From: a virus
Virus record (IMG/VR): IMGVR_UViG_3300032322_001673
Span: 1-58,958 of that record
Length of the DNA: 58,958 bases
Reading direction: 5' to 3' (one strand)
Of the stretch, positions 13,508 through 33,683 are shown piece by piece. Below the pieces are notes generated by a model. The model worked only from the letters and a program-made list of their open reading frames with translations. It searched no databases and was not told where the DNA came from. The number at the start of each line of letters is the position of its first letter. Position 1 is the stretch's first letter. A program made the translations under genes and the position numbers.

Positions 13508-14228
13508 TTGTCCAACCTAATTTAGTTATTAAATATCCTGCAGGGTCATATTTTGTGTAATTTAATTTTGGATTTGAGTGATGGGATGCATGATATATAC
13601 CATCAGAAAATATTAAAGGCCAATATAATTTAGCAATGTTTCTTGCTTCACCGTTTTTGTGACTAATAACATTAACAAAAAGATTTGTGTTAAAAATCAT
13701 AAATGCTACAGGAATTGCCCAAAGCGTCATAAACCATACAAATGGCAATAATAAAAATAATATTAAATTTCCTAATATGATGAAATGAATTTCATATTTA
13801 CTTAGAAATAAAAAATAAGAATCTCTAAGTCTATCTATACCTCTTTTTAATTGTGCCTCATGAAAACGAGAACAAAAAATGATATAATACCATGATTTAT
13901 ATTTAGGACTATGTGGATCGTTTTCTGTATCTGTATAATGATGATGTGTTCTATGCCATGCTGCCCATGTTATTGGCGTTCCAATTAACGCTAACACACT
14001 TATAGTTGCTAATATGTTCTGAACAAATTTAGGAGGATTCCATAAATTATGGCTAGCCCAACGATGACAAAACAAACTTTGAACTACATCAATCATAAAC
14101 CAATAACTGATATAACCTATAATTAATTGATACCATGTTGCATGATAAAGCCAAACAGGAAATAACAATAGATAAGTTATGAACAAAAACGTTGATGTAT
14201 ATTTGGATAGTGTAATTTGAGAAATCAT
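13494..14228 (-). CDS. membrane fatty-acid desaturase B
   Basis: 244 aa from the ATG at 14228, which forms an ATGA overlap with the upstream stop; the frame extends further upstream but over the neighbour. His boxes HRWASH (55-60), HRTHH (92-96) and HASHH near the C-terminus, with several long hydrophobic segments. Same family as desaturases A and C but clearly diverged, so the three probably differ in position or substrate rather than being recent copies. Confidence 0.92.
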   Translation of the reverse strand: MISQITLSKYTSTFLFITYLLLFPVWLYHATWYQLIIGYISYWFMIDVVQSLFCHRWASHNLWNPPKFVQNILATISVLALIGTPITWAAWHRTHHHYTDTENDPHSPKYKSWYYIIFCSRFHEAQLKRGIDRLRDSYFLFLSKYEIHFIILGNLILFLLLPFVWFMTLWAIPVAFMIFNTNLFVNVISHKNGEARNIAKLYWPLIFSDGIYHASHHSNPKLNYTKYDPAGYLITKLGWTNEKI

Positions 14229-14983
14229 TTTTTTATCATCCAAATAATCATTGCGGGCAGATCCACTTCCCACCAACGTTCCCAATTACTCCAATTATAA
14301 GGTTTAGCATGATGATTATTGTGCCATCCCTCACCTAAGGCTAAAATATTTGCGATCCAACTATTTCGGCTTTCATCATGTCTTAAGTCATACGTTTTGT
14401 ATCCATGTCTATGAGCAATAACAATGATAGAACTTGTAGAGTGCAATACAATACATGCAGGAATACTATACACAAATATAACGAACCATGGATTAATACA
14501 AAATAAAATGAAACAGTATAACAATATAATTTCTAGATAATAGTTATGTAAAAATTTTTGAAATTTATCTTTTCGTAAATCTCTCACTAATTTTAAATCT
14601 AATTTTACTAAGTTCCATAGTCCAAACCATGCTCTAAAATTTCCTATTAGGTGGGGGCTATGTGGATCCCCTGCCTTTTCACAACTACGGTGATGTTGTC
14701 TATGAATTGCTACCCATGCTAAAGGACTACCTATTGTAGTAACTACACCAATAATACTTAAAGTTTTTTCCCAAAATTTTGATGTCTTAAAACTTTTATG
14801 GGAAAGATATCTGTGATATCCAACTCCTACACCCATAGGACCAATTATAAGCCAAGTTATAAGAGATATTACTAGGTACATATATTGTCCTGTCGTAAAC
14901 ACAAAGGCAAATCCAATCATAAGCAATAAATGATTTATGATCTGCATCCCTCTAACTAATTGATTATGTGTAATTTTATGCAT
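14225..14983 (-). CDS. membrane fatty-acid desaturase C
   Basis: 252 aa. His boxes HRYLSH (57-62), HRQHH (94-98) and HNNHH near the C-terminus; long hydrophobic segments around residues 15-50 and 145-175. The order of boxes and the length fit delta-9-type desaturases. It starts directly after the stop of the upstream gene (TAA then ATG). The three desaturases together suggest that the phage changes unsaturation of host membrane lipids, or makes an unusual acyl chain. Confidence 0.92.
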   Translation of the reverse strand: MHKITHNQLVRGMQIINHLLLMIGFAFVFTTGQYMYLVISLITWLIIGPMGVGVGYHRYLSHKSFKTSKFWEKTLSIIGVVTTIGSPLAWVAIHRQHHRSCEKAGDPHSPHLIGNFRAWFGLWNLVKLDLKLVRDLRKDKFQKFLHNYYLEIILLYCFILFCINPWFVIFVYSIPACIVLHSTSSIIVIAHRHGYKTYDLRHDESRNSWIANILALGEGWHNNHHAKPYNWSNWERWWEVDLPAMIIWMIKK

Positions 14984-15604
14984 TTATATTCCAAAATCTA
15001 ACATTTCCCATTCTGCATGAGTTATTAACTTCGGGTTCCATTTCTGAAAACTGTTAGGTACAACCTCATAGTACAAATAATTTTGCCAGCATTTTTGCAC
15101 TTCAAATGGGCAAGTTTGAATATAGTTTTCTCCTATTTTCCATTCAGGAGCCACTGATACGATTGCTTCACTAAATATTTTCCAATAACCCTTAGATTGC
15201 TTTTTCTCTCTATTTTGCATTGCTATAATGTAGCAATCAAAATTATTAATATTTGTTAAAGGCTTCACTAAATGTTCATTGTATAATGTAGGAACTTGCA
15301 GATACCCTTTGCGAGAATTTTGTCTAAACTTAGGAAATAGATATTCTCTATGCAAATGTCTAGCAATATTTTTTGGATATCTGCCATCGTTGAAAACACC
15401 TCCCATTCCAACAGGTTCATGCGTATATTTAGTAAAAACTACAGCAAATCCACTGTGGTTTTCAATCTTTAAATTTTCAGGAGTATATAAATGTCTTAAC
15501 CAATTATCTTCTAATAAACATAGCTCACGAATTTCTTCAAACTCTTTGCATGGTTCTGTATAAATTTTGTGATAAAACTCATTAACATTAGACGTTAGCA
15601 ACAT
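14984..15604 (-). CDS. unknown protein, possibly GNAT-like
   Basis: 206 aa, soluble, rich in aromatic residues. A central 'FAVVFTKYTHEPVGMGGVF' followed by 'YIIAMQNR' has the strand pattern of an acetyltransferase-like fold, but no acetyl-CoA loop is clear. It is the first gene of the desaturase unit and immediately abuts desaturase C, so a role in lipid or acyl metabolism is possible. I do not recognise a family with certainty. Confidence 0.6.
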   Translation of the reverse strand: MLLTSNVNEFYHKIYTEPCKEFEEIRELCLLEDNWLRHLYTPENLKIENHSGFAVVFTKYTHEPVGMGGVFNDGRYPKNIARHLHREYLFPKFRQNSRKGYLQVPTLYNEHLVKPLTNINNFDCYIIAMQNREKKQSKGYWKIFSEAIVSVAPEWKIGENYIQTCPFEVQKCWQNYLYYEVVPNSFQKWNPKLITHAEWEMLDFGI

Positions 15605-15605
15605 A

Positions 15606-15635
15606 TTTATATTTATTGTGCTTCAATTATGTCAA
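15606..15635 (-). promoter_or_regulatory. possible promoter for the desaturase unit
   Basis: Reverse strand TTGACA (15630-15635), 18-nt spacer, TATAAA (15606-15611). The same bases also contain the T4-type late motif TATAAATA (15604-15611). However, it ends on the start codon at 15604, so a transcript would begin at or inside the ATG. Either the message is leaderless or the match is chance in AT-rich DNA. Confidence 0.35.
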
Positions 15636-15665
15636 ATAAATAAATAAGAAATATATTATTAAACC

Positions 15666-16190
15666 ATGCACAAAGAAAAATTTATAGACAATTTAATTAA
15701 TAATTGGCAAACTATATCAGAAGAATACAGTCAAGTTAAAAAAACAATTCCATTGTATGATTTTGATGAGAAACCTAAGTACACTCCTGATTGGAGAGCC
15801 GTAACACTTTGGTGGAATTATAAACCATTGCCTCCTTTTCAAAAACAATTACCCAAAACAACTGAGTTAGTTACACACGGACCTAGTCATCGTGCTACTG
15901 GATGGTTAATATTAAATCCCCATTCCAGAACTCCTGAACATAATCATTTAGATTGGGGACATAAAATCATTGTTCACATTCCAACATATATACCTGAAGG
16001 TGATGTAGGATTTTACGTAAATGGTAACTTATACCGTTGGAAAATGGGAGAAATCTTTGCGTTTGATTGCTATAACAATCATTATGGATTTAATAATACT
16101 GATGAGGCTAGATCAATAATGGTAATGGATTTTGAATATGATGAATGGATAGATGTATTAAGACCTTATATGCGCATGGAAAAACAGTGA
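15666..16190 (+). CDS. aspartyl/asparaginyl beta-hydroxylase-like oxygenase
   Basis: 174 aa. The jelly-roll core matches the Asp_Arg_Hydrox pattern: 'LNPHSRTPEHNHLDWGHK' with H92/H94, 'VPEGD'-like 'IPEGDVGFYVNG', 'RWKMGEIFAFDCYNNHYGFNN' with H139, and R149. AspH enzymes are Fe(II)/2OG dioxygenases that hydroxylate Asp/Asn or, in related bacterial enzymes, lipids or small molecules. First gene of a two-gene plus-strand unit between two minus-strand blocks. Substrate unknown. Confidence 0.82.
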   Translation: MHKEKFIDNLINNWQTISEEYSQVKKTIPLYDFDEKPKYTPDWRAVTLWWNYKPLPPFQKQLPKTTELVTHGPSHRATGWLILNPHSRTPEHNHLDWGHKIIVHIPTYIPEGDVGFYVNGNLYRWKMGEIFAFDCYNNHYGFNNTDEARSIMVMDFEYDEWIDVLRPYMRMEKQ

Positions 16191-16759
16191 GATTTATAGA
16201 AAAAATTAATTTTACCGCTGATGTTAATCAAATGATTAATGATTTAAATTTGTTTATATCTAGAAACCCATGGCCAAATACTACGTTCATGTATAATAAT
16301 CAAAAATATCATGCTAATCAATTAGGTCTTACTTATCGTCCTAATGCAGATTATCCATTAGGGGATGCAGGCGGTAGCTTATACGATCCTGTAACCAATT
16401 CATTCACTAGCAGTGAAACAGACTTTACTGAATGGACTGATGTAGAGCCTTATACAAAAAACATAATAGAACAATTCAGCACTTTCGTAGATTCTAAATT
16501 TGGGAGAATTCGCTATATGCGATTGATGCCTAAAACAGGATTAAGTGTACACGCTGACTTTGAATGTAGATACCATTATGTTTTAGAAACAAACAAATAT
16601 GCATACTTTGGTGAAGCAGTTAGCGACAATGACTTATCTGCTAAATGTTATAATATACCAGCAGATGGTTCTTTTTATAGAGTAGATACTACCAAAGAAC
16701 ATTTTGTCTATAATGGTGGTTGGGAGCCACGCATACATTTAGTTATATGTTCTGCTTAA
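16187..16759 (+). CDS. second AspH-like oxygenase
   Basis: 190 aa from a GTG at 16187 that overlaps the previous stop by 4 nt. An in-frame ATG at 16145 would add 14 residues read out of frame from the neighbour, so I prefer GTG. 'MRLMPKTGLSVHADFE' (H122, D124), 'TTKEHFVYNGG' (H172) and R182 give the HxD...H...R set of the Asp_Arg_Hydrox jelly-roll. Diverged from the adjacent 15666-16190 enzyme. The two may work in sequence or as a heterodimer. Confidence 0.75.
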   Translation: MRFIEKINFTADVNQMINDLNLFISRNPWPNTTFMYNNQKYHANQLGLTYRPNADYPLGDAGGSLYDPVTNSFTSSETDFTEWTDVEPYTKNIIEQFSTFVDSKFGRIRYMRLMPKTGLSVHADFECRYHYVLETNKYAYFGEAVSDNDLSAKCYNIPADGSFYRVDTTKEHFVYNGGWEPRIHLVICSA

Positions 16760-16776
16760 GATTAAGCTTGTTTTTT
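16754..16776 (+). terminator. probable terminator of the oxygenase pair
   Basis: GCTTA (16754-16758), loop AGAT, TAAGC (16763-16767), then TTG and six T on the plus strand. It spans the stop codons of both the plus-strand oxygenase and the convergent iscU. The stem is short (5 bp). Confidence 0.5.
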
Positions 16777-17139
16777 CTTATAATCAGCAATAGCAGACTT
16801 TATAGCATCTTCCGCCAATATTGAGCAATGAATTTTGACCGGCGGTAAAGCCAACTCCTCTGCAATTTCCGTGTTCTTAATTGCATTTGCTTCTGCAAGA
16901 GTTTTTCCCTTAAGCCAAGTCGTGACGAGCGAACTACTAGCAATCGCCGACCCGCAGCCATACGTTTTAAATTTCGCATCGGTGATAATTTCATTTTCTA
17001 CCTTTATTTGTAGTTTTAAAACATCCCCACACGCAGGCGCCCCGACAAGACCTGTACCGACTGATTCGTCATTCATGTCAAGGCTACCAACGTTGCGTGG
17101 ATTTTCGTAATGATCTAATACTTGTTGTGAATATGACAT
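16762..17139 (-). CDS. iscU: iron-sulfur cluster scaffold IscU
   Basis: 125 aa, full IscU length. All three cluster-binding cysteines are present: C37 (APACGD), C62 (YGCGSA) and C105 (KIHCSIL). The LPPVK motif (98-102) that binds the HscA chaperone is also there. IscU assembles Fe-S clusters in the cytoplasm with host IscS. AGAGGA precedes the ATG. It ends the hydrolase/DUF2452 unit, and no iscS, hscA or fdx is visible. It probably supports the phage's five radical SAM enzymes or other Fe-S proteins. This is inference. Confidence 0.95.
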   Translation of the reverse strand: MSYSQQVLDHYENPRNVGSLDMNDESVGTGLVGAPACGDVLKLQIKVENEIITDAKFKTYGCGSAIASSSLVTTWLKGKTLAEANAIKNTEIAEELALPPVKIHCSILAEDAIKSAIADYKKKQA

Positions 17140-21662: not shown

Positions 21663-22763
21663 TTATAAAACTGGTAACGCATCGTAATCAACGGTGTCGC
21701 TCATCACGCCGATTACGTAATTTGTACTCTCATTTTCTTGTAGGGCAGTTTGCTTTTTGTTGATATTCACATGTTTATTGAACCATGGAATAGGACTTGT
21801 TTTTGGATGACTCTCTAGATACTTAATACCAATATCCTTAAGCCTATTAAAAGCGGTCCAGTCTACAAAATCTTTAAGTATATCTGCATTTAGTCCTATT
21901 ACAACGCCTTTACTAAAAAGATACTCAGCCCAATCTTTTTCTTCTTTGATTACTTCTAAGTACATGTTGTAAACTTCTTGTTCGCATTCAACTTTTGCTT
22001 TTGTAAATCTTTCATCTTCTTTTACTACTTGATTAATTAAATATGCTGTCCATTCAGTATGCAACAATTCATCTTGTAGTATAAGACTTATGATATTACC
22101 ATTGCCAATATAAATTCTGTTTTCTACCATTGCAAGGCTTGTAGCGAAACTAACCATAAAGCGTAATGCCTCAAGTGCATAACTAGCATTTAATGCTAGC
22201 CAAATAGCTTTAACGTGATCATCCTCTGATACAATAGCTCCTGTTTCTTTGCTACAGTTAAGTTGATGTAGTTGTTCATAATATCTACCTACATTTGCTG
22301 CCATCTCAACAATTTCTTTTGTTTCATGTATCTTATTAAATTCTTCTTTAGGCACACCATATACATTACGAATAATATGACTATATGATTTGCTATGTAT
22401 ATTAGTTTCAAAGAAACTCCAGTTATTAACTAGTGCTTCTAATTCTGGAATACTGATTACTGGGCCGAATACTTGTGCTGGTGCTCTGCCTTGTATGCTG
22501 TCGAGAGCCGTCTGGCGGAGAAGATTACTAGTAAAGATATGCTTAACAGCATCACTTGCCTCCTTGTGATCAATTTTATCTTTTGTTAATGTTACTTCTT
22601 CTGGTACCCAAAAGAATCCACGTGCAGTTTCTTCATATTTGGCAACTTTTGGGTACTTAACTTCTTCAAATCGCTGTACTGTTACAGGTCCCTCAGGGTC
22701 TAAAAACATTGTGCGTTTCAAGTAATTAGTTTGCTTCGTTAAATTGTATTGTTCTTTACTCAT
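21663..22763 (-). CDS. nrdB: ribonucleotide reductase class Ia, small subunit NrdB
   Basis: 366 aa from the ATG at 22763, set by GAGG 6 nt upstream; an upstream in-frame start overlaps the neighbour. Di-iron ligands and radical tyrosine are recognisable: D88 (ALDSIQGR), E119, H123 and Y127 (FFETNIHSKSYSH), then E in 'YALEALRF' and 'QDELLH'. The spacing between E119 and H123 is one residue longer than the E-x2-H of E. coli NrdB. It forms the tyrosyl radical for NrdA. Confidence 0.95.
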   Translation of the reverse strand: MSKEQYNLTKQTNYLKRTMFLDPEGPVTVQRFEEVKYPKVAKYEETARGFFWVPEEVTLTKDKIDHKEASDAVKHIFTSNLLRQTALDSIQGRAPAQVFGPVISIPELEALVNNWSFFETNIHSKSYSHIIRNVYGVPKEEFNKIHETKEIVEMAANVGRYYEQLHQLNCSKETGAIVSEDDHVKAIWLALNASYALEALRFMVSFATSLAMVENRIYIGNGNIISLILQDELLHTEWTAYLINQVVKEDERFTKAKVECEQEVYNMYLEVIKEEKDWAEYLFSKGVVIGLNADILKDFVDWTAFNRLKDIGIKYLESHPKTSPIPWFNKHVNINKKQTALQENESTNYVIGVMSDTVDYDALPVL

Positions 22764-23406
22764 TATTGTCCTCTTCATACATAACTGTGTTTGTGTCTCC
22801 TAAAAACCACTTTGGATTTTGTTCAACAACATATTTTTTCGTGCATACTTTAAAATCAGGAAACTTTAATTCTTTTGGATTACTCGCAGCATCTAAAAAC
22901 AAACATCTATTGTTTGGTTGTGCTGCATATTGTCCATTGTCTAATTCTATAAAATTAAAACTTTTGTGATCTTCTGGCCATTCAGCATAACTAGTGTCTA
23001 TTATGTTAAAATCGGGCGCAGAGTGATCAACTGTAAACATGTAATTACCTTGATAAAAATTTTTATCTTTTGCATAAAACTTTGCAGATAGATTTCTCAA
23101 AAATGGTTTTTGAATTATAGTAAAATCATAACTAAAACAATCCCAAATTTGCAATACGTCTAAAGGTAAAAATTTCTTAGAGTCAATATTCTCTGTGCGT
23201 GATACAAACGCATGGAGAGGTAACTTGTCATAAAGTGCGCCATAATTTGGTAAGTAACTTTCTATTCTGAATGCTTGTCCACGAATGCTTTTGATTGATA
23301 CCCATATACAAGGTTCATATTCTCCATGACCTTTTTGAAAGTCATAGAGAAATTCTTTACGAATGTAACAGTGTACTGGTGGTATACTTGCGACTAAATG
23401 TGCCAT
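22756..23406 (-). CDS. unknown protein encoded between nrdA and nrdB
   Basis: 216 aa from the ATG at 23406, which overlaps the nrdA stop (TAATG). Mixed alpha/beta, aromatic-rich, with 'HCYIRKEFLYDFQKGHGEYE' near the start and an acidic C-terminus 'MYEEDNNE'. No family recognised. Fixed between nrdA and nrdB and translationally coupled to both, so it probably relates to nucleotide metabolism or is a conserved passenger. Confidence 0.75.
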   Translation of the reverse strand: MAHLVASIPPVHCYIRKEFLYDFQKGHGEYEPCIWVSIKSIRGQAFRIESYLPNYGALYDKLPLHAFVSRTENIDSKKFLPLDVLQIWDCFSYDFTIIQKPFLRNLSAKFYAKDKNFYQGNYMFTVDHSAPDFNIIDTSYAEWPEDHKSFNFIELDNGQYAAQPNNRCLFLDAASNPKELKFPDFKVCTKKYVVEQNPKWFLGDTNTVMYEEDNNE

Positions 23407-25730
23407 TATAACACACAAGCTTCACAAGCTTCTTCATCTTCTAATGGCTCTAATTTAGTAAATTCAATAACATTATCTTTGTCAGTTAGTGCAGCCTTAG
23501 AACCCATTTTGTTAATTAAACTATAATAAATTGTTTTTAATCCCCACTTATATGCTAGCATAAGATTTTTAGCTATTAATGTAGCACTCACTTTACCTTC
23601 AGGGAAAAATGCAGGATTATAAAAAGTATTCGTTGATATGCTTTGATCAACATATACTGCCAGTACTGCACTTGTCTTTAAGTAGTCTATACAATCACTT
23701 TGTTCCCACATTAATTGATAACGATTTTTTAATCTCTTGTATTCAGGAACAACTTGTACAAAACTACCAGCTTTACTTTCTTTAACACTGATTAGTTCCA
23801 TTGGCAATTCAATGCCATTTGTAGAATTTAATACTACACTAGAACTTTCTACAGGAGCAATTGCCATTAATGTTGCATTACGAATACCATATTCTTTTAG
23901 TTTCTCACGCAATGATTCCCAATCCATACTAGGACTAAAATCAGTTAATTCGTTTGCTCCTTCTGCTCTACGCTCCCAAGGAAAAATTCCTTTGCCATAG
24001 TATGTACGTGAACTATTTTTACAAGCACCTCGCTCTTGTGCTAACTCAACACTGGTTTCAGTGAGGTAGTATGCTTGATGTTCCATCCAACGTTTTACTT
24101 CTGCAAGGGCTTCGTCTGTGCCATAACGTAAGTGACGTTTTGCATGCCAATAGGCAAGATTAGTAATACCAACACCCAACGGCTCAAAATCTTCATTTGC
24201 CAATTTACTTTGTACACTTAAAAAATCCTGATAGCTTAGGAGATTGCTTAGACTGCGCACAAGTACTCTACAGGCTTTTCGCATGTCTTGTGGATTTTTA
24301 AATGCACCCCAGTTTACACTACCTAATGTGCAGAGAGCGATACGACCCTTTTCATCTTCGATTCTCTGAAATGGTTTCGTAGGTAGTAGTATTTCCTGAC
24401 AAAGGTTACTTTGATATATTGGATCAGTTTTAGTATCAAAAGGACCTTGATTAATAACATTATCTATATTGACTAGATAGACACGACCCGTGTCTGTTCT
24501 TTCCTTTAGTATACCGTTTTTGAATATTTCTACTGCTGGTAAAACTTTCTTGCGCAAACCTTTTTTATGTTCATACATTGTGTATAAACGTTCAAATTCT
24601 TCTGTATCACTATAAAATGCCTCATATAAATTTGGCACCTCATGTGGATCAAATAATGTAATGTTCTCATTACGCTTGTAACGATTCCAAAACATTTTAT
24701 TAACTACAACACTATAGTCCATTTGACGAACACGTGTTTCTTCTGGTCCTTGATTATTTTTAAGCACAATCAAATCTTCAAACTGATAGTGCCATATAGG
24801 GAATGTAACTGTGCAACTTGCATTACGTACACCACCTTGACTGCAACTACGTAGGTCACCAAACCATTTCTTTAAAAATGGAATCATACCAGTGTGTTTG
24901 ATTTCGCCATTACGAATAGGTGCGCCTAGTGGGCGAATACGACCAATTTCTAATCCGATGCCAGCACGTTTGCTAGCATACTTAGCCATCATCTCGCCGG
25001 CTGCAAAAATTGAATCAAGAGTATCATCGCTACTAATAAGCACACAACTACTAAATTGCTTTGTAGTAGTGCCAAGGCCTGCCAACACCGGAGTTGCCAA
25101 TGTAAAATGCCCGTCACTAGCGCACTCATAATATTCTTTAACATATTTTAGTCTCTTTTCCTTAGGTTCGTTATGGAAAGCAGTGGCGGCAGCTATTGCA
25201 TAACGCACCTGCGGAGTTTCAAAGATTTGTCCTGTAGCACGATTTTGAACCAAATATTTTTCAGTTAGTTGTGCTATTGCTGCATAGGTGTAGTTTTCAT
25301 CCTTGCCATGATCAATAAACAAATCAATGATATCCCATTCTTCTTTGGTATACCAATCTAGTAATTCACGTGTATACATCCCGTGTTCTACATTTTTAAC
25401 TACGATTTCGTACAATGAAGGTGGCTCATATTGACCATAGACTTCTTTACGCAACATTGAAACTTTCTGTCTACCCGCTACATATTGATAGTTTACATCA
25501 TTTATGTCTTTGTTTTCACTTTCATCAATAAGATCAACCATTGCTTTAAGTAATAGTTCATCTATTGTTTCTGTATGAATTCCGTCATGTAGTTGTATTT
25601 GTGCTTTGATTTCTATCATACTAGGGCTTACGTTATCTATGCCCTTGCACCCGTATGCGACTTGTCTTTGAATTTTGCTTATGTCTAGTGGAACAGATTC
25701 CCCGTTTCTTTTTATTACGTTTATATTCAT
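23406..25730 (-). CDS. nrdA: ribonucleotide reductase class Ia, large subunit NrdA
   Basis: 774 aa. N-terminal ATP-cone (IKRNGESVPLDISKIQ; allosteric activity site). Catalytic region with 'SSCVLISSDD', 'NLCQEILLPTKP' (the N-x-C-x-E active-site set) and 'ALCTLGSVNWG' for the redox cysteine. C-terminal 'CEAC' pair for reduction by glutaredoxin. It reduces ribonucleoside diphosphates for phage DNA synthesis. First gene of the nrdA-orf-nrdB-grx-PAAR unit. Only a weak ribosome site (AGG) precedes the ATG. Confidence 0.97.
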   Translation of the reverse strand: MNINVIKRNGESVPLDISKIQRQVAYGCKGIDNVSPSMIEIKAQIQLHDGIHTETIDELLLKAMVDLIDESENKDINDVNYQYVAGRQKVSMLRKEVYGQYEPPSLYEIVVKNVEHGMYTRELLDWYTKEEWDIIDLFIDHGKDENYTYAAIAQLTEKYLVQNRATGQIFETPQVRYAIAAATAFHNEPKEKRLKYVKEYYECASDGHFTLATPVLAGLGTTTKQFSSCVLISSDDTLDSIFAAGEMMAKYASKRAGIGLEIGRIRPLGAPIRNGEIKHTGMIPFLKKWFGDLRSCSQGGVRNASCTVTFPIWHYQFEDLIVLKNNQGPEETRVRQMDYSVVVNKMFWNRYKRNENITLFDPHEVPNLYEAFYSDTEEFERLYTMYEHKKGLRKKVLPAVEIFKNGILKERTDTGRVYLVNIDNVINQGPFDTKTDPIYQSNLCQEILLPTKPFQRIEDEKGRIALCTLGSVNWGAFKNPQDMRKACRVLVRSLSNLLSYQDFLSVQSKLANEDFEPLGVGITNLAYWHAKRHLRYGTDEALAEVKRWMEHQAYYLTETSVELAQERGACKNSSRTYYGKGIFPWERRAEGANELTDFSPSMDWESLREKLKEYGIRNATLMAIAPVESSSVVLNSTNGIELPMELISVKESKAGSFVQVVPEYKRLKNRYQLMWEQSDCIDYLKTSAVLAVYVDQSISTNTFYNPAFFPEGKVSATLIAKNLMLAYKWGLKTIYYSLINKMGSKAALTDKDNVIEFTKLEPLEDEEACEACVL

Positions 25731-25850: not shown

Positions 25851-26285
25851 TTACGCTAGTCTTTCCAATTGTTTTTCAATGCTAATTTCACCTTTTATAG
25901 TAAAATCACACAGCTTATTTGTCTCTACGGTGTTAGGCCAATAGTTTAAAATATATGTATCGTCTACTAATACCAATACTACATCGTTTCCCAGTTGATC
26001 CGTTGCAGTAACCATTTTAAAGTTTTTCTCCCCTGTCATGTATAAAGTATAACATATACCCAAGGCTTTAGCAACATTACAATACAAATTTTCTACCAAA
26101 AGTTCCCAAGGATCGGGCCAATTTTGCGTATCCTTTAAATGGAGATAATGATTCACTGTGGGTGCGTTTTGCCACCAGTTATCTATTTTTATAGATTTAG
26201 ATTTTAATTCTGATACTCTAACATCTTCTTTGAGGTCATGCCAACTTTGCAGTCTTGTTTCATATTCAAGTTGAAAAATGTTCAT
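25851..26285 (-). CDS. unknown protein (144 aa) at the end of the glycan block
   Basis: Starts MNIFQLEYETRLQSW; central 'NWWQNAPTVNHYLHLKDTQN' and C-terminal beta-rich 'MVTATDQLGNDVVLVLVDDT'. No catalytic motif recognised, no membrane segment. It overlaps hldD by 20 nt, so it belongs to the heptose/glycosylation operon. Its role is unknown. Confidence 0.7.
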   Translation of the reverse strand: MNIFQLEYETRLQSWHDLKEDVRVSELKSKSIKIDNWWQNAPTVNHYLHLKDTQNWPDPWELLVENLYCNVAKALGICYTLYMTGEKNFKMVTATDQLGNDVVLVLVDDTYILNYWPNTVETNKLCDFTIKGEISIEKQLERLA

Positions 26286-27060
26286 TTATTGTTTTTGTTA
26301 GTTTAGTTAAATCAGCACACGTATATTTTTGGTAGCTGTGAATTAGTTCTTGTGGCATTGGAATTTCTTTAATTGTTGCGCCTGTTTGTGTAGCTATAAT
26401 TGCTGCTATTTCCATAAAGCTACGTGCAGACCCTGTTCCAATATTATAAATTCCTGTAGATTTTATATTAAGAAATTTTTTGTGTACCTCAACTACTTTA
26501 TTCACGTGAACAAAATCACGCAGATAATTCTGACTGTCAGCAAAAACCTTTATCTCTCCAGTTTCGTTAGCTTGCTTTAAAAATTGTGTATAAGGACTTG
26601 CTTGACCACCTTTATGCTCTTCCCCGTCACCATACACGTTGAAGTATCTGAACCCTTGTATGCTGATGTTTTTTTGATTTGCAATTTCGTATTTTTCAGC
26701 AGCATATCGTTCAAACATATATTTACTCCAAGCATACGGAGTTCTCGGATCGACGGGGCTATCTTCTTTGAATTCTTCTTTGTGTCCATATATACTTGCA
26801 CTACTACTATACTGGAAGTTAATGTTTAGTTCTAAACATTTATCCAATAGATCACAACTGAAGTCATAATTTTGTGTCATTATTTTTTCAATATTGGTTT
26901 CAGTTGTGCTACTTATTCCACCAATATGTATTATAGTATCAACCCCATCAAGTTTAGGGAACGTATCCTTCCACTCAAACGTAATGACTTCGTGATCCGA
27001 TAAGGCTTTCAATACATGACTGCCAATAAAACCTTTATGTCCTGTTACTAATATTTTCAT
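26266..27060 (-). CDS. hldD: ADP-glyceromanno-heptose 6-epimerase (HldD/GmhD type)
   Basis: 264 aa short-chain-type epimerase. Rossmann 'TGHKGFIGSH' (6-15), 'SASIYGHKEEF' (88-97) and catalytic Y109-x3-K113. The family-specific 'FRYFNVYGDGEEHKGGQASP' and 'QNYLRDFVHVNKV' are characteristic of HldD. It converts ADP-D-glycero- to ADP-L-glycero-D-manno-heptose. Somewhat shorter than the bacterial enzyme (about 310 aa). It lies in one unit with heptose kinase and adenylyltransferase genes, which makes the assignment strong. Confidence 0.88.
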   Translation of the reverse strand: MKILVTGHKGFIGSHVLKALSDHEVITFEWKDTFPKLDGVDTIIHIGGISSTTETNIEKIMTQNYDFSCDLLDKCLELNINFQYSSSASIYGHKEEFKEDSPVDPRTPYAWSKYMFERYAAEKYEIANQKNISIQGFRYFNVYGDGEEHKGGQASPYTQFLKQANETGEIKVFADSQNYLRDFVHVNKVVEVHKKFLNIKSTGIYNIGTGSARSFMEIAAIIATQTGATIKEIPMPQELIHSYQKYTCADLTKLTKTINEHFST

Positions 27061-27422
27061 GTTTTACTCTGACTATCACCGGGTAATACTCTATAATTAT
27101 CTTCGACACTATCTGCAGTGCTAACTTCTATAAGACTACCTTCCTCAATACAAATAAGTTGATGTGGGAACAATGGTTTGTTTCTCCAAACATTGCCCGG
27201 TAATAGTTCTACCTCATGTTGTGATGCATCTGCCAAATCAATATATTTCACTAAAAATTTACCTGACAGTACCAACCATGTCTCATCTTTTTCTTTGTGA
27301 AAGTGCATACTAAATTTAGAATCAGCATTAAAGTTTAGTAGTTTCCCACAATAATGTTCATTAGTGGCAAAAATGAATTCATTGCCCCAACCCTTTTCTA
27401 CATGTCCTTCAAGCCTTGTCAT
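27057..27422 (-). CDS. cupin, sugar-phosphate isomerase/epimerase-like
   Basis: 121 aa with a cupin barrel: H40-x-H42...E47 (SMHFHKEKDETW) and 'HQLICIEEGSLIEVS'. The protein resembles the C-terminal part of mannose-6-phosphate isomerase or short dTDP-sugar isomerase cupins. In the heptose operon it may act as a sugar isomerase or epimerase that varies the heptose. 4-nt overlap with hldD and 14-nt overlap with the kinase. Confidence 0.78.
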   Translation of the reverse strand: MTRLEGHVEKGWGNEFIFATNEHYCGKLLNFNADSKFSMHFHKEKDETWLVLSGKFLVKYIDLADASQHEVELLPGNVWRNKPLFPHQLICIEEGSLIEVSTADSVEDNYRVLPGDSQSKT

Positions 27423-28176
27423 CTAATTCCTCAATTTCTGTTAATGTGGGACTGTAAACCCCTATGTGTTGTATTGTAACTGAACTAGCTTTTATTGCAA
27501 ATTTAATGGATTTTATAATATCTTTAGTATTACAATATTGATAAGTCAATGCTGCAAGAAATGTGTCACCTGCACCACATACATCAAATGCTTCTATATT
27601 TAACGCAGGTATCAATTCACCTTTATAAGTTGCTCCCTTGCTTCCCTTTGTAACTATTAAATCTGAAGGGAAAGTTTTGGCTGCATCAAATTCTTTTTGA
27701 TTAATCTTTACATAGCAGCCTTCAAATCTAACTAAGTCTGTCTTTTTAGTATCAATGAATATAGGACCTATGTAATTGGTACGTAGATTTTCTATCACAT
27801 CATATGTTACTGACCCTTTTTCATAATCACTAATCACGATTGCATCATAACTATTGATAGTTTCATAGTCAACTTTTACTGGTCTGCTAGGTGTATCTTG
27901 ATCAATTCTTATTAAATGATGTTTGGTTCTTGAATCTATTACTCTTGTTTTTATAGAAGTTTTTATGCCATGAATGAAATCAACAACACAATCTAATTTC
28001 TCTAAATTATCTTTGACATTTGCAGCCATGCCAGGCTTAGTGACAGTATGTGTATAGTTTATTATGGGTACAGGTGCCTCTGGACTAATCCTGTCCACAG
28101 TTCCATATTGATACTGATCAATTCCATTATCCCCGATCAGCAATATCTTGAATTTTTTGTGTTGTGCTGAATCCAT
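27409..28176 (-). CDS. D-beta-D-heptose 7-phosphate kinase (HldE N-terminal domain as a separate protein)
   Basis: 255 aa PfkB-family sugar kinase. 'KILLIGDNGIDQYQYGTVDRI', 'SPEAPVPI', and 'CGAGDTFLAAL' with catalytic D204 (GAGD 201-204). Opening and 'ISPEAPVPI' are signatures of the kinase half of HldE (RfaE1). In bacteria the kinase and adenylyltransferase are often fused; here they are two overlapping genes in the opposite order. It makes heptose 1,7-bisphosphate. Its start overlaps the upstream gene by 50 nt. Confidence 0.85.
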   Translation of the reverse strand: MDSAQHKKFKILLIGDNGIDQYQYGTVDRISPEAPVPIINYTHTVTKPGMAANVKDNLEKLDCVVDFIHGIKTSIKTRVIDSRTKHHLIRIDQDTPSRPVKVDYETINSYDAIVISDYEKGSVTYDVIENLRTNYIGPIFIDTKKTDLVRFEGCYVKINQKEFDAAKTFPSDLIVTKGSKGATYKGELIPALNIEAFDVCGAGDTFLAALTYQYCNTKDIIKSIKFAIKASSVTIQHIGVYSPTLTEIEELDDKA

Positions 28177-28522
28177 CTATTCTATCAAAAAATACTAATT
28201 CTTTACAAACATCTTGACCAATAATTGATTTATCTTTGTAATCACTTCCCTTTACCATTACGTCATGGATTGACACAAGATACTCTAATTCTTCATCTGT
28301 ATCAAATATGTATACGTTATCTACTGCTTTTAAATTAATTAGTAATGTTGATCTTTCTGCTTGATTATTGATAGGTCTAGATTCACCTTTTAATCTTTTA
28401 ACACGGTCATCACTATCAATTGCTACATTGACTTCATCACCTAAACTTTTTGCATAGTTTATTAGAGCAATATGCCCCTCATGTAATAAATCAAAAGTGC
28501 CATTTACAAATATTTTTTTCAT
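28127..28522 (-). CDS. heptose 1-phosphate adenylyltransferase (HldE C-terminal domain as a separate protein)
   Basis: 131 aa cytidylyltransferase-like fold. 'VNGTFDLLHEGHIAL' (6-20) with H14-x2-H17 (HxGH), then 'DSDDRVKRLKG' and 'VKGSDYKDK'. This is the nucleotidyltransferase half of HldE (RfaE2), which makes ADP-D,D-heptose. Placed upstream of the kinase gene, the reverse of the order in fused bacterial HldE. Confidence 0.88.
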   Translation of the reverse strand: MKKIFVNGTFDLLHEGHIALINYAKSLGDEVNVAIDSDDRVKRLKGESRPINNQAERSTLLINLKAVDNVYIFDTDEELEYLVSIHDVMVKGSDYKDKSIIGQDVCKELVFFDRIDGFSTTQKIQDIADRG

Positions 28523-28531
28523 ACTGTACCT

Positions 28532-29311
28532 TTATTCAAATTGATCCCATAGTTTTTTCCAATCAATGTATGGATCCTTTTCCGTATCTGCTTGTGAGTG
28601 AAGTGCTAAACTAGGAATAGGGGTAAACAACAAGCAACCTCTTTCTCTAAACAATCTATTAATGGTTTCATCTTCCATCACGCTATCTATTGCATGATTA
28701 CCCATAGCCTCAAACAAATCAAAGTTTTGCACAAGTGTAGGGTAATCAACCATAAAGCAACTAGCAGTACCAAATGCAGTTTTCCAATGTCTGTTTAATC
28801 CTAAGTGAACTGTTACTAGTGGTTGTCTATCAGGTGGTATTACATATCTATATGGATCATCAAATGGGTAAACGCAGACAGGTAATTTTGACTTTTCACT
28901 AAATCTAAAATATGCGTCTAACATTTCATACATGCATGTTTCAAAATATAGATAGTCGTCCTGTGCAAAATAAACTAAATCTTTACCATGTTTTTTACCA
29001 TATTCGTAACAAGCCATAATACTTGGCATTATACCATATGTTTCTAAATGCTGTAATTCATAATTGAAATTACATGACTGTAATATAGTGTTTAGTTTAT
29101 TTAAAAACTGTTCATCACTATGATCGTCTAAGACTTGTAATTTAATCTTAACTTCGTTTGGTTTTACTGTCATCAAATGATTTAATGTATTAACCAAACT
29201 CTTAATACAACGATAGCTTATCTCAGCCTTATCATCGGACATATATCTTGTAATCTGTTTTTGATTATTTGATTTACTATGACTTTGTAATACTACCAAT
29301 AGTTCTACCAT
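28532..29311 (-). CDS. glycosyltransferase (family-2-like)
   Basis: 259 aa. Starts MVELLVVLQSHSKS, the form of a GT-A nucleotide-sugar domain. 'DLVYFAQDDYLYF' supplies the acidic metal site and 'FRERGCLLFTPI' a later motif. Donor and acceptor are unknown, but its position next to the ADP-heptose genes suggests that it acts on the same glycan. Starts one base after the methyltransferase gene. Confidence 0.75.
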   Translation of the reverse strand: MVELLVVLQSHSKSNNQKQITRYMSDDKAEISYRCIKSLVNTLNHLMTVKPNEVKIKLQVLDDHSDEQFLNKLNTILQSCNFNYELQHLETYGIMPSIMACYEYGKKHGKDLVYFAQDDYLYFETCMYEMLDAYFRFSEKSKLPVCVYPFDDPYRYVIPPDRQPLVTVHLGLNRHWKTAFGTASCFMVDYPTLVQNFDLFEAMGNHAIDSVMEDETINRLFRERGCLLFTPIPSLALHSQADTEKDPYIDWKKLWDQFE

Positions 29312-29312
29312 A

Positions 29313-29990
29313 TCAACCCCAACTGAAAACAGGATTTCTATTTGCTGTACTGACGGCTTCAGTTGGTGGTCTTGTTACACCTTTTTCTAACACAACCATA
29401 CTGTTGTGAAACGTAACTGATTTTAAATCAACAAACGCTTTTGCTAAAGCGGGCGGAGCACTTTCTCTAATATGAGGTGCATGTAACAAATCTATAAGTT
29501 GTTTGGCAAATTCTATGAAAGTTCCTTGCTTGTGTAATCCACCGCCCCACTCAGACCAATAACTTGTGTGCGTATCCTCTACAACATAGATGCCACCTTC
29601 ATTTAACTTAGGGAACAATGTCAACAATGTAAGAATTTGATGTTCGCTATCATGACTACCATCATCTACTACAATATCAAATTTAGGTTTACCAGTTAAA
29701 TATGCATTCCAATGTTCTGTGCTGCTTTGATCAACACAGGCATAATCTACTTTAGTATCAAACTTATAGTCTAAAAAATCTTTATTAATATCTACTGCAT
29801 AAAGGTCTACTTCATTATCAAAATACTTTAACCAAAGTTCTAGACTGCCACCGTGTGCTACACCTATCTCTAACATCTTAGGATTTTTTCCTACGTAGTT
29901 TTTTAATATGTTGTCATAAACTTCAAAATAGTTATTCCATTTTTTGCTTAATAACTTTAACTTGTAGAAAATATCATATGTACTTGTCAT
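29313..29990 (-). CDS. methyltransferase of the MycE/CmcI-like type
   Basis: 225 aa from the ATG at 29990 (ATGA overlap with the upstream gene). SAM-binding 'MLEIGVAHGGS' (39-49), 'LYAVDINK', 'VVDDGSHD' (107-114) and 'VVEDTHTSYW' (136-145). This motif set is typical of metal-dependent O-methyltransferases acting on sugars or natural products. Likely O-methylates a glycan made by the neighbouring transferases. Confidence 0.85.
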   Translation of the reverse strand: MTSTYDIFYKLKLLSKKWNNYFEVYDNILKNYVGKNPKMLEIGVAHGGSLELWLKYFDNEVDLYAVDINKDFLDYKFDTKVDYACVDQSSTEHWNAYLTGKPKFDIVVDDGSHDSEHQILTLLTLFPKLNEGGIYVVEDTHTSYWSEWGGGLHKQGTFIEFAKQLIDLLHAPHIRESAPPALAKAFVDLKSVTFHNSMVVLEKGVTRPPTEAVSTANRNPVFSWG

Positions 29991-31285
29991 AGCATAACAC
30001 TCGCACATTTAAGGAAGAACAAATGATTAAACACATTTAATCTACTTTGGAATAAATGATAAAACATTTCATTGCCATCTTTGTCTACGAAAGTAGTGCC
30101 AATACCAAACTGTGGATCGCCGTCACGTAAGTCCCATGGTTTACGTTCCCCTGTATTCCAATATGGTATTTCTTCATACTTGCCTGGCATGTACATTTCA
30201 ATTTCTATACCTTGTTTTTCTGCTTCATAGCATAGTTCTTCACCTATATCGCTACGTGCGTTTGGCTTCCAACTAGGCTTACCTAATTTTTCATACATAT
30301 CCCTAGTCAATGCAATGCAACTTGGGGCAGGGTAAATGTGTTTACCATTGTCTAAATGATTACTGCGTTGAACGTTGCCTATTAGTACACCTTCTTCTGC
30401 ACGTTGAAATGTATACTCTAGTGCATGTTCGCTCAATGGTACGCAATCAATATCTAGCATTAAGATAGTATGATAGTTATCTTCATAGAATAACTTTTCT
30501 AAACCATATTCAATGACTTGATCAGGTGTCATTTCACCATCAGGTTTTTTATAATGCAAATATTCGTATTTGCACAGTTTATTTTTGTTAAATTTACCTA
30601 TCATTTGTTTTTGAAGATAACTGATCTTATCCTCAATCTGATGATTACTATAAGTAAATATGGCTCTTTTCTTCATAATATTCTCACTGTAAAGTTGTTT
30701 GGTACTCTTTCTTTGGAAATGATACACGAAACTGTTGACTAAAGCAAATTTATATCCTAAATTTGGTAAAACTGAATGAAAAAGTGTCACATCATTGGCA
30801 TATAAAGGGAATTTGTCAATATTTGGATATGACACGAAACTTTTTTTGTGCACCACAAAGGGCATGTACCAACCAATTTTATTAAACTCTATTTCAGGTA
30901 CATAAGCTTTATTAACATCTACGTAATTTTGAAATTTATCATAATCAAAATTTTCTAAATTATCACCGCAATCGTATTCAATACATTCTGGACCATTCAT
31001 TTTTCCTGGATATGGTTCAACTACATGCATAGTTAAAAATGTATCTTCAGCAAGATACATAGGAAATACTTCGTCCCAATTCTTGCTAACAAGCATATCA
31101 TCACTAAGCAAAACAACTATATCATATTTTGCCTGATAGACACCTTTATTAAAGGCATAGTAAACATCAGTCTCATCAATTATCTGAATAATTTCAGGAT
31201 CATATTTACTATTCTTTTTAATATATTCAATACAAGTATCTATATATTTGCTGTTGCTTAAGTGTGGTATTACGATTGAATACAT
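29987..31285 (-). CDS. two-domain glycosyltransferase
   Basis: 432 aa. Residues 1-215 form a GT2-like domain (YSIVIPHLSNSKYIDTC, 'VVLLSDDMLVSKNW', C-terminal 'YVYHFQRK'-like end). Residues about 225-432 form a second GT-like domain with 'HTILMLDIDCVPLSEHAL' and 'GNVQRSNHL'. The fusion could add two sugars or one domain may be a targeting module. The start is supported by AAGGAG inside the end of the upstream gene, with the stop and start sharing TAATG. Confidence 0.75.
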   Translation of the reverse strand: MYSIVIPHLSNSKYIDTCIEYIKKNSKYDPEIIQIIDETDVYYAFNKGVYQAKYDIVVLLSDDMLVSKNWDEVFPMYLAEDTFLTMHVVEPYPGKMNGPECIEYDCGDNLENFDYDKFQNYVDVNKAYVPEIEFNKIGWYMPFVVHKKSFVSYPNIDKFPLYANDVTLFHSVLPNLGYKFALVNSFVYHFQRKSTKQLYSENIMKKRAIFTYSNHQIEDKISYLQKQMIGKFNKNKLCKYEYLHYKKPDGEMTPDQVIEYGLEKLFYEDNYHTILMLDIDCVPLSEHALEYTFQRAEEGVLIGNVQRSNHLDNGKHIYPAPSCIALTRDMYEKLGKPSWKPNARSDIGEELCYEAEKQGIEIEMYMPGKYEEIPYWNTGERKPWDLRDGDPQFGIGTTFVDKDGNEMFYHLFQSRLNVFNHLFFLKCASVML

Positions 31286-31968
31286 TAACGCTCCTTACCA
31301 TCTATGGTTTTTTTACGTCCTACAATTGTAGTATTTGCAATATCACTTTCATCATACGCATATAAACCTAATTGTATTGCAGGAATTATATCACTACGCA
31401 ACATAATATCCAATGATTCGCAAATACCGTATTTGATTACATATGATAGTGCATTTTTTGCTGCCCAAGGATCTATACTATAGGCATGCGCTCTGCAAAT
31501 AAAGTGATAGTTATTACCATTAGTGGCATGCGGTGGTGTTATTAGAACAGGCCAACCTTTTTTAGCCTGTTCATAACTTCCTAAATAATGTATTATTCCA
31601 GTTACTGGATGATCTCTAAGTTCTTTAAGCATAATTGCATCATGCTCAAGTATTATTATTGGTCTGTCAAGTTCAATGCAATGCGCCCATAAACTAATAT
31701 GGCTTAACGCAACACTTACTTCAGTAAGACTTAGTTCTTTATCGACCCATTTGATCCAACTAGTCCAAGTCGCATCTTTACTGTGATCTGGTTCAATAAT
31801 TGTGCCTGATGTTCCATCAAATGCATCCCATACTTTATATGGCATATTTAATGCAGCGAGGCTTTGTTGACACCTCGCTGACATTCTTTCACTTATTGGA
31901 TGATTTTTTAAAGTGATAATATAAGCAGATTCAATTGACAGATTGTAACTGTAATCTAACTTTAACAT
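31285..31968 (-). CDS. family-25-like LPS glycosyltransferase
   Basis: 227 aa. 'AYIITLKNHPISERMS' at the start, 'SLTEVSVALSHISLWAHCI', and 'PIIILEHDAIM' fit GT25 (LPS beta-galactosyltransferase LgtB/LpsA-like). The usual acidic 'EDD/EDDA' site reads 'EHDA' here, a change at the metal-binding motif. C-terminus 'TTIVGRKKTIDGKER' is also GT25-like ('S.T.....'). Confidence 0.75.
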   Translation of the reverse strand: MLKLDYSYNLSIESAYIITLKNHPISERMSARCQQSLAALNMPYKVWDAFDGTSGTIIEPDHSKDATWTSWIKWVDKELSLTEVSVALSHISLWAHCIELDRPIIILEHDAIMLKELRDHPVTGIIHYLGSYEQAKKGWPVLITPPHATNGNNYHFICRAHAYSIDPWAAKNALSYVIKYGICESLDIMLRSDIIPAIQLGLYAYDESDIANTTIVGRKKTIDGKER

Positions 31969-33683
31969 TATCTATTTGCAATAAAATTTTCTATCTCTGA
32001 TTGTGACACACGACCGGGTTTGTTTACTTGAACTAACAAGCGCATTGACAATGCAACATTGTTAAATGTGTTTAGTGCATAGTTCAAATCTTCTTCGGTG
32101 ATTTCACCACGTTTACGTCTTTCTTCCCAATGCGGCAAGTACTCAAACTGTACGTCACATATTTCTAAATCGATGCCATGTTCAAATGCTATCAATGAAT
32201 CACTTTGATTGTCTTTTGTTCTTTCATATATTTTCTTTTGATTGAACAACATGAATGTACCCAATGTTATTAAACGCTTGTGCGTTGGGTCATCTATTGC
32301 AACATCACAACGCCAATGTGGAACTTGAACTTCCCAAACAGCACCATTGTCACTAATACGATACATTTCTTTAATAACAGATACAAAATCATTTGAATCA
32401 CCACCTAGATGTTCGAGTACATCTTTCGCAACGATATGACCAAACTCATTATCTTTCCATGGCCAAGGAGTAACATTTAAATCAACTATTTGATCTGGTT
32501 TTACTAAATCACTTACATCAACGTTTAGATATCCGTCAAATTTATTAAGTCCACATCCTAAGTTAAGGCGTTTTAATACCTTATCTTCATTCGGCATTTC
32601 AACATGTTCTAGATTAAACTTTTCTTCTAATGCAGTGTATAGTTTTTGGAATGTAGTATTCCATTTACCTGCTTCTTCTTGCCTAAACAACTTAACACAT
32701 TCGTAATAAGGACTGGTTGTGTTTTCAGGACTTCCATAAGCCCAAGTATGATAAGGGAGAATAGGAGGTGTAACCCACGTTTCTTTACCCATTGCAGCAG
32801 CAATGTGTGCGATACTTGTGCAACTAGTAATTACAATATCTAAGTTAGCAATACATGCCATTGTATCTTCCCAACTTAGCAAGAAGTGTTGTAAGTCAGT
32901 AACACCTTCTGGTAATTGAATAATATTATGATCACGTTGTAAACTATAAATCTGCAATTCTTTATATTTTGCAAGATTAGTCATGAAAGCTTCAGGAAAC
33001 TTTCTGAACTGTTGATGTTCAAATTTAGGATTACCTGCCCAACGAATACCAACTTTAACTTTATCACTATTAATTAAATTTTTCCATATATCGACACTTG
33101 CTTGAAGTGGACTCATATATGGTTTGCCGGGGAAGTTTTCAAAAGTGTGGCCTGCTACCCAACCTGCACTAAAGCCGGGTACCCAGTAATCATGTTGAAC
33201 AGTATCTGCCGCATTGCGTAATATAACATCATCAACACCTGGTATGCGTTTAAATACACTAACCATTTCAGGTGCTGCTGCTAGATATACTTTACTCGCA
33301 CCTTGTTGTTTAAAACTTTGTGCAAAACGTGCATGAATAATTTCATCACCATAACCACCTTCTAGTGATATGATAATACTTTTACCTTTAATATCGTGCT
33401 GTTCTGGGTTGAAAATAGGTGCGTCAGTCTTTAATGGTCCACTTCCATATACACTTATGAATCTTCCATTTTCTAATAACTGACAACCTTTTTGATAATC
33501 GCCTTGTTGTAGTAAGAACCAACCGCGATTGAAACTGTGTCGTATCCATGTTTCTGGATTTACTTTACCTGATGGGTCACGACATTCATCAGGTCCTGCT
33601 TTTTCCATTTCTTCAGAAATAGCCCAAGCTTCTTTTTGTTTTCCTTCTAATTGATAAGCCAATAATTGATCAATTGGATGCAT
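31968..33683 (-). CDS. GT9-like glycosyltransferase fused to a methyltransferase
   Basis: 571 aa in three parts. Residues 8-75 are TPR-like helices. Residues about 100-355 form a GT-B region with 'ISLEGGYGDEI' (106-115) and 'TSCTSIAHIAAAMGK' (286-300), as in GT9 heptosyltransferases and TPR-linked OGT-like proteins. Residues 371-555 are a class I methyltransferase ('LNLGCG' 373-378, 'DVLEHL' 421-426). Plausible heptosyltransferase plus sugar methylation, the natural acceptor enzyme for ADP-heptose made downstream. First gene after a late promoter; AAAGGGA precedes the ATG. Confidence 0.8.
   Translation of the reverse strand: MHPIDQLLAYQLEGKQKEAWAISEEMEKAGPDECRDPSGKVNPETWIRHSFNRGWFLLQQGDYQKGCQLLENGRFISVYGSGPLKTDAPIFNPEQHDIKGKSIIISLEGGYGDEIIHARFAQSFKQQGASKVYLAAAPEMVSVFKRIPGVDDVILRNAADTVQHDYWVPGFSAGWVAGHTFENFPGKPYMSPLQASVDIWKNLINSDKVKVGIRWAGNPKFEHQQFRKFPEAFMTNLAKYKELQIYSLQRDHNIIQLPEGVTDLQHFLLSWEDTMACIANLDIVITSCTSIAHIAAAMGKETWVTPPILPYHTWAYGSPENTTSPYYECVKLFRQEEAGKWNTTFQKLYTALEEKFNLEHVEMPNEDKVLKRLNLGCGLNKFDGYLNVDVSDLVKPDQIVDLNVTPWPWKDNEFGHIVAKDVLEHLGGDSNDFVSVIKEMYRISDNGAVWEVQVPHWRCDVAIDDPTHKRLITLGTFMLFNQKKIYERTKDNQSDSLIAFEHGIDLEICDVQFEYLPHWEERRKRGEITEEDLNYALNTFNNVALSMRLLVQVNKPGRVSQSEIENFIANR

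Follow-up and report, generated by a model that had tools for sequence, protein, structure and literature searches.

A phage cassette for activated heptose in which a cupin may take the place of GmhA

Which enzyme opens the heptose pathway in a phage that carries genes for its later steps? The question is raised by the virus record IMGVR_UViG_3300032322_001673, a fragment of a larger genome. Its 58,958 bases were analyzed as a whole and are called the window here. The minus strand contains a cassette of four intact open reading frames (ORFs). In transcription order, they encode an HldC-like heptose-1-phosphate nucleotidyltransferase (28522-28127; 131 amino acids [aa]), an HldA-like heptose-7-phosphate kinase of the PfkB family (28176-27409; a compact 255 aa), a cupin (27422-27057; 121 aa) and an HldD-like nucleoside diphosphate (NDP)-heptose 6-epimerase (27060-26266; 264 aa). 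Neighboring genes overlap by 4 to 50 bases, and PHROGs families already exist for all four. A first-pass annotation had described separate, adjacent genes for an epimerase, a PfkB kinase and an HxGH adenylyltransferase, with a cupin between them and with HldE split so that the adenylyltransferase comes first; the ORFs, their order and the NCBIfam matches confirm this layout. It had also suggested that GmhA and GmhB, which were not seen, may come from the host. We are fairly confident that the cassette as a whole is best explained as a phage module for activated heptose in which the cupin replaces GmhA.

GmhA converts sedoheptulose 7-phosphate to a manno-configured heptose 7-phosphate. Heptose synthesis is committed at this step, and the enzyme is a target for drugs (PMC11056994). 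A search with SIS_2 (PF13580, the GmhA family), in which the positive controls matched, gave no match in the window, in 34 related records (among them 10 complete cyanophage genomes), or in 50 further viral records carrying the cupin (84 related phage records in all). The window also contains no HAD-IIIA match (TIGR01662), no HAD motif and no match to PHROG 1238, in agreement with the earlier statement that neither GmhA nor GmhB is visible. Phage cassettes thus contain the kinase, the nucleotidyltransferase, the epimerase and often a phosphatase, with no known isomerase and with the cupin present. Among 79 viral cupin loci, 66 had at least one of the kinase, adenylyltransferase and epimerase genes, and 40 had all three.

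The evidence that carries our reading comes from cellular operons. In a genome scan, the cupin was found in Woesearchaeota, Nanoarchaeota and one Nomurabacterium, in an operon with the order cupin-hldD-hldA-gmhB-hldC. These operons (seven loci in DPANN) encode all enzymes leading from sedoheptulose 7-phosphate to ADP-L-glycero-D-manno-heptose except GmhA, and their one extra gene is the cupin. The first gene alone differs between gmhA-hldD-hldA-gmhB-hldC (L183 and L191) and cupin-hldD-hldA-gmhB-hldC (L175, L182 and L187). Since GmhB is found in both operon types, the cupin is no substitute for the phosphatase and replaces GmhA only. We then turned to one DPANN phylum and, in the 60 of its 237 surveyed genomes that contain hldA, counted neighbors within 5 kb of this gene. 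The cupin was present in 13 genomes, an SIS protein in 27, neither in 20, and both in none. In 11 of the 13 genomes with a cupin near hldA, no SIS match was detected anywhere. On the HldA tree, the cupin/GmhA label changes 12 times (11 times among cells), and at least 5 of these changes are forced by well-supported branches. Gene fusions follow the same pattern: we found three HldA-cupin fusions (one of them, L236, in bacteria of the candidate phyla radiation [CPR]), a cupin-HldA fusion, also in CPR bacteria, and a cupin-HldD fusion. In parallel to HldA-cupin, there is an HldA-GmhA fusion, in which NCBIfam confirms both domains.

Because the cupin and GmhA repeatedly swap in the same operon in DPANN archaea and CPR bacteria, the cupin is probably an unrecognized GmhA analog, that is, a sedoheptulose-7-phosphate isomerase. 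That the phage protein catalyzes the reaction of its cellular counterparts, and on this substrate, is our inference. The exchange weakens the default reading of a host-supplied GmhA. Of the earlier suggestion concerning the host, the GmhB part stands, as none is present in the fragment and the host may provide it; the GmhA part does not, the cupin being the likeliest replacement. More broadly, it seems rather likely that this cupin family is a second, unrelated sedoheptulose-7-phosphate isomerase with a phosphomannose isomerase-like ancestry, serving phages, DPANN and CPR in place of GmhA, and that many phages thereby own the entry to the pathway and need not rely on the host for it. A literature search, which left subscription journals mostly outside its reach, revealed no paper connecting the cupin with GmhA or heptose.

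The sequence and the predicted fold of the cupin are compatible with such a role. In 31 phage cupin sequences, 24 of about 120 positions are invariant, including the metal residues H40, H42, E47 and H87 and, in addition, Y24, C25, K27, K45, E99, D108 and R111. The metal motif HxH(x)4E(x)6G, which reads HFHKEKDETWLVLSG, and the second-motif histidine H87 are invariant in all 31. The cellular cupins have the same invariant residues. AlphaFold predicted a confident cupin barrel (predicted local distance difference test [pLDDT] score, 88.7), which aligns to the cupin phosphomannose isomerases 7zvm and 7zvy of approximately 110 aa (Z, 14.5; root mean square deviation, 1.8). Being a beta barrel, the model lacks the SIS fold, and the window cupin would be GmhA-like in function, not in fold. 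The cupin profile matches solved sugar isomerases, namely, D-lyxose isomerase 2y0o (with YC.K and K.ETF in common), L-ribose isomerase and 7nzo. Sequence and fold alone leave the function unsettled. The window protein is a candidate isomerase on the combined basis of its metal motif (HFHKEKDE...H), its cupin fold and the operon exchange.

Several observations weigh against this assignment. The mutual exclusion near hldA (Fisher's exact test, P = 1.1e-4) is indicative only, because the genomes are metagenome assembled, incomplete or of unknown completeness, and related to each other and thus not independent draws. An SIS protein of approximately 200 aa is encoded elsewhere in 3 of the 10 operon-bearing genomes of the first scan. 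On one contig (L073:6538-11423), a cupin-HldA-HldC set is followed by a GHMP kinase, an SIS protein, an HAD-nucleotidyltransferase fusion and an epimerase. The cupin profile also matches oxalate decarboxylases, and in the fold comparison, cupins of many functions tie at the top (Z, 13 to 15.6), so that function is not discriminated. The cupin tree is weakly supported at its deep forks, and the phage cupins do not demonstrably nest in the cellular hld-linked cupins; for this reason, we carried the function from the DPANN and CPR cupins to the phage cupins by invariant residues and gene context. Finally, for some phage cupins (L092, 122 kb; L115, 141 kb; L087; and L138), the record includes no kinase, and a kinase search in the records with such orphan cupins found none. 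Two of these cupins adjoin queuosine genes for QueD- or FolE-like and QueE-like proteins (L087:6019-8366 and L115:6337-9406).

The kinase-less phages fit a different role, in which the cupin acts later and the host supplies GmhA. Cupin NDP-sugar epimerases are known in heptose modification. The phage protein might accordingly act on the nucleotide-linked heptose as an RmlC-like 3,5-epimerase (compare the Campylobacter capsular heptose cupins), or it might be a heptose-phosphate anomerase. Hosts with heptose in their lipopolysaccharide (LPS) do have a GmhA. A later-acting cupin, however, leaves unexplained why cupin and GmhA exclude each other and swap repeatedly at hldA. Moreover, the DPANN operons are complete except for GmhA, with 11 of 13 genomes lacking an SIS match altogether, and the presence of GmhB in both operon types leaves GmhA as the only enzyme whose place the cupin takes. 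The nearest sister family, described below, is phosphomannose isomerase-like. We therefore consider a later step unlikely.

The sister family came from a search of CPR phyla, which yielded hld-linked cupins and a second group; in the latter, manC, the gene for mannose-1-phosphate guanylyltransferase, lies beside the cupin gene in 8 of the 14 examples that were fetched. The manC-linked cupins have a C-terminal DDYGR and QxH instead of HxH, while the hld-linked cupins have DS/DN-YR..GD. In the cupin tree, the manC-linked sisters form a separate clade, divided from the heptose cupins by a long branch (99*). They look like phosphomannose isomerases. Phosphomannose isomerase converts fructose 6-phosphate to mannose 6-phosphate, and the GmhA reaction is the same reaction one carbon longer. 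This makes recruitment of a phosphomannose isomerase-like cupin plausible, and it would be a simple route to the heptose cupins. The same relationship raises the possibility that the phage cupin is itself a true phosphomannose isomerase, or another hexose isomerase serving a different sugar, that merely lies beside heptose genes. Weak Pfam matches to MannoseP_isomer (PF01050) and D-lyxose isomerase (PF07385) are in line with this, as is the manC linkage of the sister clade. We nevertheless find it distinctly improbable in view of the separate clade, its long branch and the two differing signatures. The DDYGR signature is not present in the window cupin, whose C-terminal end is ..VEDNYRVLPGDSQ, and no manC was found nearby. 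In the fusions found, the cupin is joined to HldA and HldD, never to ManC.

The three remaining genes encode HldA-, HldC- and HldD-like enzymes of the activated-heptose pathway, as judged by family scores and matches in the PDB; the first-pass annotation was right in placing such enzymes in a phage. The nucleotidyltransferase scored 112.5 bits with TIGR02199 (HldC domain), against 50.9 bits with the second-best NCBIfam model, glycerol-3-phosphate cytidylyltransferase (TagD). It matched PHROG 7878 with an E value of 2e-41, and its best PDB sequence match was 5x9q, a putative cytidylyltransferase (E value, 7e-17). It carries HxGH as LLHEGH and an STT motif in the context RIDGFSTT. The kinase (PHROG 8133) scored 144.1 bits with TIGR02198 (HldA domain) and 52.4 bits with ribokinase. 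It contains RISPEAPVP and GAGD, and its best PDB sequence match was HldA 4e84 (E value, 4e-18). The profile match is broken into three stretches, and approximately 35 HldA residues are absent after the first block. The predicted kinase structure (pLDDT, 89.9) matched Burkholderia cenocepacia HldA best (E value, 1e-20), with ribokinase at 3e-15. A grouping with other sugar kinases, which would have spoken against the earlier proposal, was looked at as well: HldA ranks first by family scores, by PDB sequence matches and by predicted structure. The epimerase scored 229 bits with TIGR02197 (HldD) and 90.4 bits with GalE; in the PDB, HldD 1eq2 (E value, 1e-45) was matched far ahead of UDP-glucose 4-epimerase (2e-15). 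It keeps TGHKGFIG (GxxGxxG), YAWSK (YxxxK) and EEHKGGQAS (HKGxxAS), motifs that we also surveyed in relatives. All three proteins are short and divergent and score under the curated NCBIfam naming cutoffs (TIGR02199, 181.5 bits; TIGR02198, 345 bits; TIGR02197, 274.6 bits), which is why we name them HldC-like, HldA-like and HldD-like.

Five residues before STT, the window nucleotidyltransferase has an arginine, as does the glycerol-3-phosphate cytidylyltransferase 1coz. In our motif survey, this position was arginine in many phage relatives and L, Y or I in others. The arginine of RxxGxSTT is said to widen nucleotide use to CTP and UTP besides ATP, and it occurs in heptose enzymes (PMC11461863). 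Specificity for ADP is thus not certain, and the product may, from this motif, also be CDP- or UDP-heptose. Together with the second rank of glycerol-3-phosphate cytidylyltransferase among the NCBIfam models, the arginine could suggest that the cassette makes another activated sugar or sugar alcohol, for example, a CDP-linked one, and no heptose. This is very unlikely: the arginine is shared with heptose enzymes of broad nucleotide use (PMC11461863), the kinase and the epimerase each independently indicate heptose, and the HldD motif HKGxxAS is kept.

The ratio of nonsynonymous to synonymous substitution rates (dN/dS) was 0.04 to 0.19 for all four genes in all comparisons with relatives that allowed an estimate of dS. 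All four are therefore working genes under strong purifying selection, and this, together with the recurrence of the cassette in dozens of phages, shows that the cassette is not a product of chance. The same genes are present in Synechococcus and Prochlorococcus T4-like phages; in P-SSM2, they correspond to PSSM2_309-313 (T4-GC 304-308). Accordingly, a split HldE with the nucleotidyltransferase first is the normal phage arrangement. Sullivan et al. 2010 (PMC3037559) noted four of these clusters, T4-GC 304, 305, 307 and 308, together with three others in P-SSM2, S-SM2 and S-SSM7 and left open whether they are functional or stuffer. That the cassette is nonfunctional stuffer DNA of a large phage genome, a view left open for the cyanophage LPS clusters and compatible with scores under the naming cutoffs, is scarcely credible given the low dN/dS values, the intact motifs, the 24 invariant cupin and 55 invariant kinase columns, and the overlapping, operon-like layout.

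The cyanophage cassettes have, between kinase and cupin, a gene for only 103 to 118 aa that carries the annotation "phosphoheptose isomerase" (PHROG 1238). We rejected it as a true GmhA. PSSM2_311 of P-SSM2 (L026:9734-10078) and 18 like genes are HAD phosphatases by motif: DxDGT, TARG and KPxxDxxIDDK are all present in 17 of the 19, and two of the three motifs in the other 2, with no SIS match. Most of their weak Pfam matches point to HAD families, and the second PHROG match is a polynucleotide-kinase phosphatase. The isomerase label has propagated into RefSeq phage records and surveys of auxiliary metabolic genes (AMGs), and PMC9238414 uses the gmhA label as an AMG marker. Since PHROG 1238 is an HAD phosphatase by motif in all the cyanophage cassettes examined, the statements that phages have GmhA and that phages lack the phosphatase both need rechecking. 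Phage cassettes often contain a phosphatase, either this HAD gene or, in three loci, GmhB. As the window has neither, the GmhB step in its phage may be performed by the host or by an unseen phage gene. In phage Bellamy, the same cupin is accompanied by an HAD protein, a GHMP kinase and an NTP-transferase, resembling the GDP-heptose branch. This arrangement is expected if the cupin performs the first step common to the ADP- and GDP-heptose routes.

We propose that the four genes form a coexpressed phage module that would supply glycan synthesis with nucleotide-activated heptose while infection proceeds. The cupin would act first, isomerizing sedoheptulose 7-phosphate in the stead of GmhA. A phosphatase encoded outside the fragment, by the host or by the phage, would yield heptose 1-phosphate. 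The HldC-like enzyme would then form the NDP-heptose, probably ADP-heptose and possibly CDP- or UDP-heptose, and the HldD-like enzyme would convert it to the L-glycero form for use by glycosyltransferases. If true, an unrelated enzyme for the GmhA step would change how the pathway is recognized in genomes and would fill a gap in the heptose pathways of DPANN, CPR and phages. It also offers an answer to the 2010 question (PMC3037559) of whether T4-GC 304, 305, 307 and 308 have a function and what keeps them together.

The neighborhood gives a hint at the use of the sugar. Upstream of the cassette and in the same direction lies a block of likely surface-glycan genes (28532-33683, minus strand). 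It comprises a gene without assigned function (28532-29311), methyltransferase genes (29313-30008 and part of 31968-33683), a GT2-like glycosyltransferase (29987-31285) and a GT25 glycosyltransferase (31285-31968). A related phage encodes a GT9 heptosyltransferase (L007:8179-9051) upstream of its kinase, at a distance of two genes. From these two observations, we guess that the upstream glycosyltransferases are possible users of the activated heptose. On the other side, the epimerase gene overlaps a minus-strand gene (25851-26285) for a 144-aa protein without a Pfam, NCBIfam or PHROG match, which stays by the cassette in close relatives even when the epimerase is missing (three loci).

Other parts of the window also deserve mention. 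A giant minus-strand ORF (33745-57558; 7,937 aa) combines RCC1 repeats, in dozens of copies, with about 15 laminin-G/lectin-like domains, and its product is probably adhesive; an RCC1-type ORF of 435 aa (57559-58866) lies upstream of it. Five radical-SAM genes stand in a row on the plus strand (5194-6186, 6128-7564, 7561-8514, 9104-10204 and 10197-11270) with uncharacterized partners between them, a cluster unusual for a phage. The region 11931-17139 contains a QueC-like gene and three tandem fatty-acid desaturase genes (12779-14983). It also includes a pair of genes for Asp/Asn hydroxylase-like proteins (15666-16759) and, at 16762-17139, one for a NifU-type iron-sulfur scaffold. An HNH endonuclease gene (944-1504, minus strand) adjoins four tRNA genes (Glu, Pro, Ala and Arg; 66-900). 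The subunits of a class Ia ribonucleotide reductase are encoded at 21663-25730 (minus strand). The large subunit is closest to that of Xanthomonas phage X1 (60.7%), followed by Stenotrophomonas phages, which hints at a proteobacterial rather than a cyanobacterial host.

How does the cassette compare with known systems? It resembles the LPS cluster of T4-like cyanophages (adenylyltransferase-kinase-...-cupin-epimerase), with 36 to 44% identity in kinase and cupin. Unlike the window, where the four genes stand in line without an HAD gene, cyanophages have the additional HAD gene (T4-GC 306, 103 to 118 aa), and their epimerase gene is often on the opposite strand. With the bacterial GmhA-HldE-GmhB-HldD pathway and the split HldA/HldC of Burkholderia, the window shares a kinase, a nucleotidyltransferase and an epimerase with conserved motifs. 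It differs in having a cupin and no SIS-fold GmhA, and in its kinase and epimerase of 255 and 264 aa, compared to model lengths of 315 and 316. According to a review (PMC11461863) of Tang et al. 2024, viral heptose enzymes have been assayed and are functional, with viral nucleotidyltransferases of the same pathway active in vitro. The review names no cupin isomerase and describes the phosphatase as absent in viruses, yet cyanophage cassettes contain the HAD gene. The small type II/archaeal cupin phosphomannose isomerases (7zvm and 7zvy) and D-lyxose isomerase (2y0o and 7nzo) are similar in their single barrel, YxxK and K.ET, aldose-ketose chemistry and manno product. The heptose cupins are set apart from the small phosphomannose isomerases by their own clade, HxH instead of QxH, another C-terminal signature and hldA/hldD neighbors instead of manC. 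In the DPANN and CPR operons cupin-hldD-hldA-gmhB-hldC, a cupin with the same invariant residues lies beside the other pathway enzymes; these operons are cellular, their kinases are full length, and a canonical GmhB is included. Phage heptose genes are not new in themselves, and the cassette is a further member of a module already known from phages.

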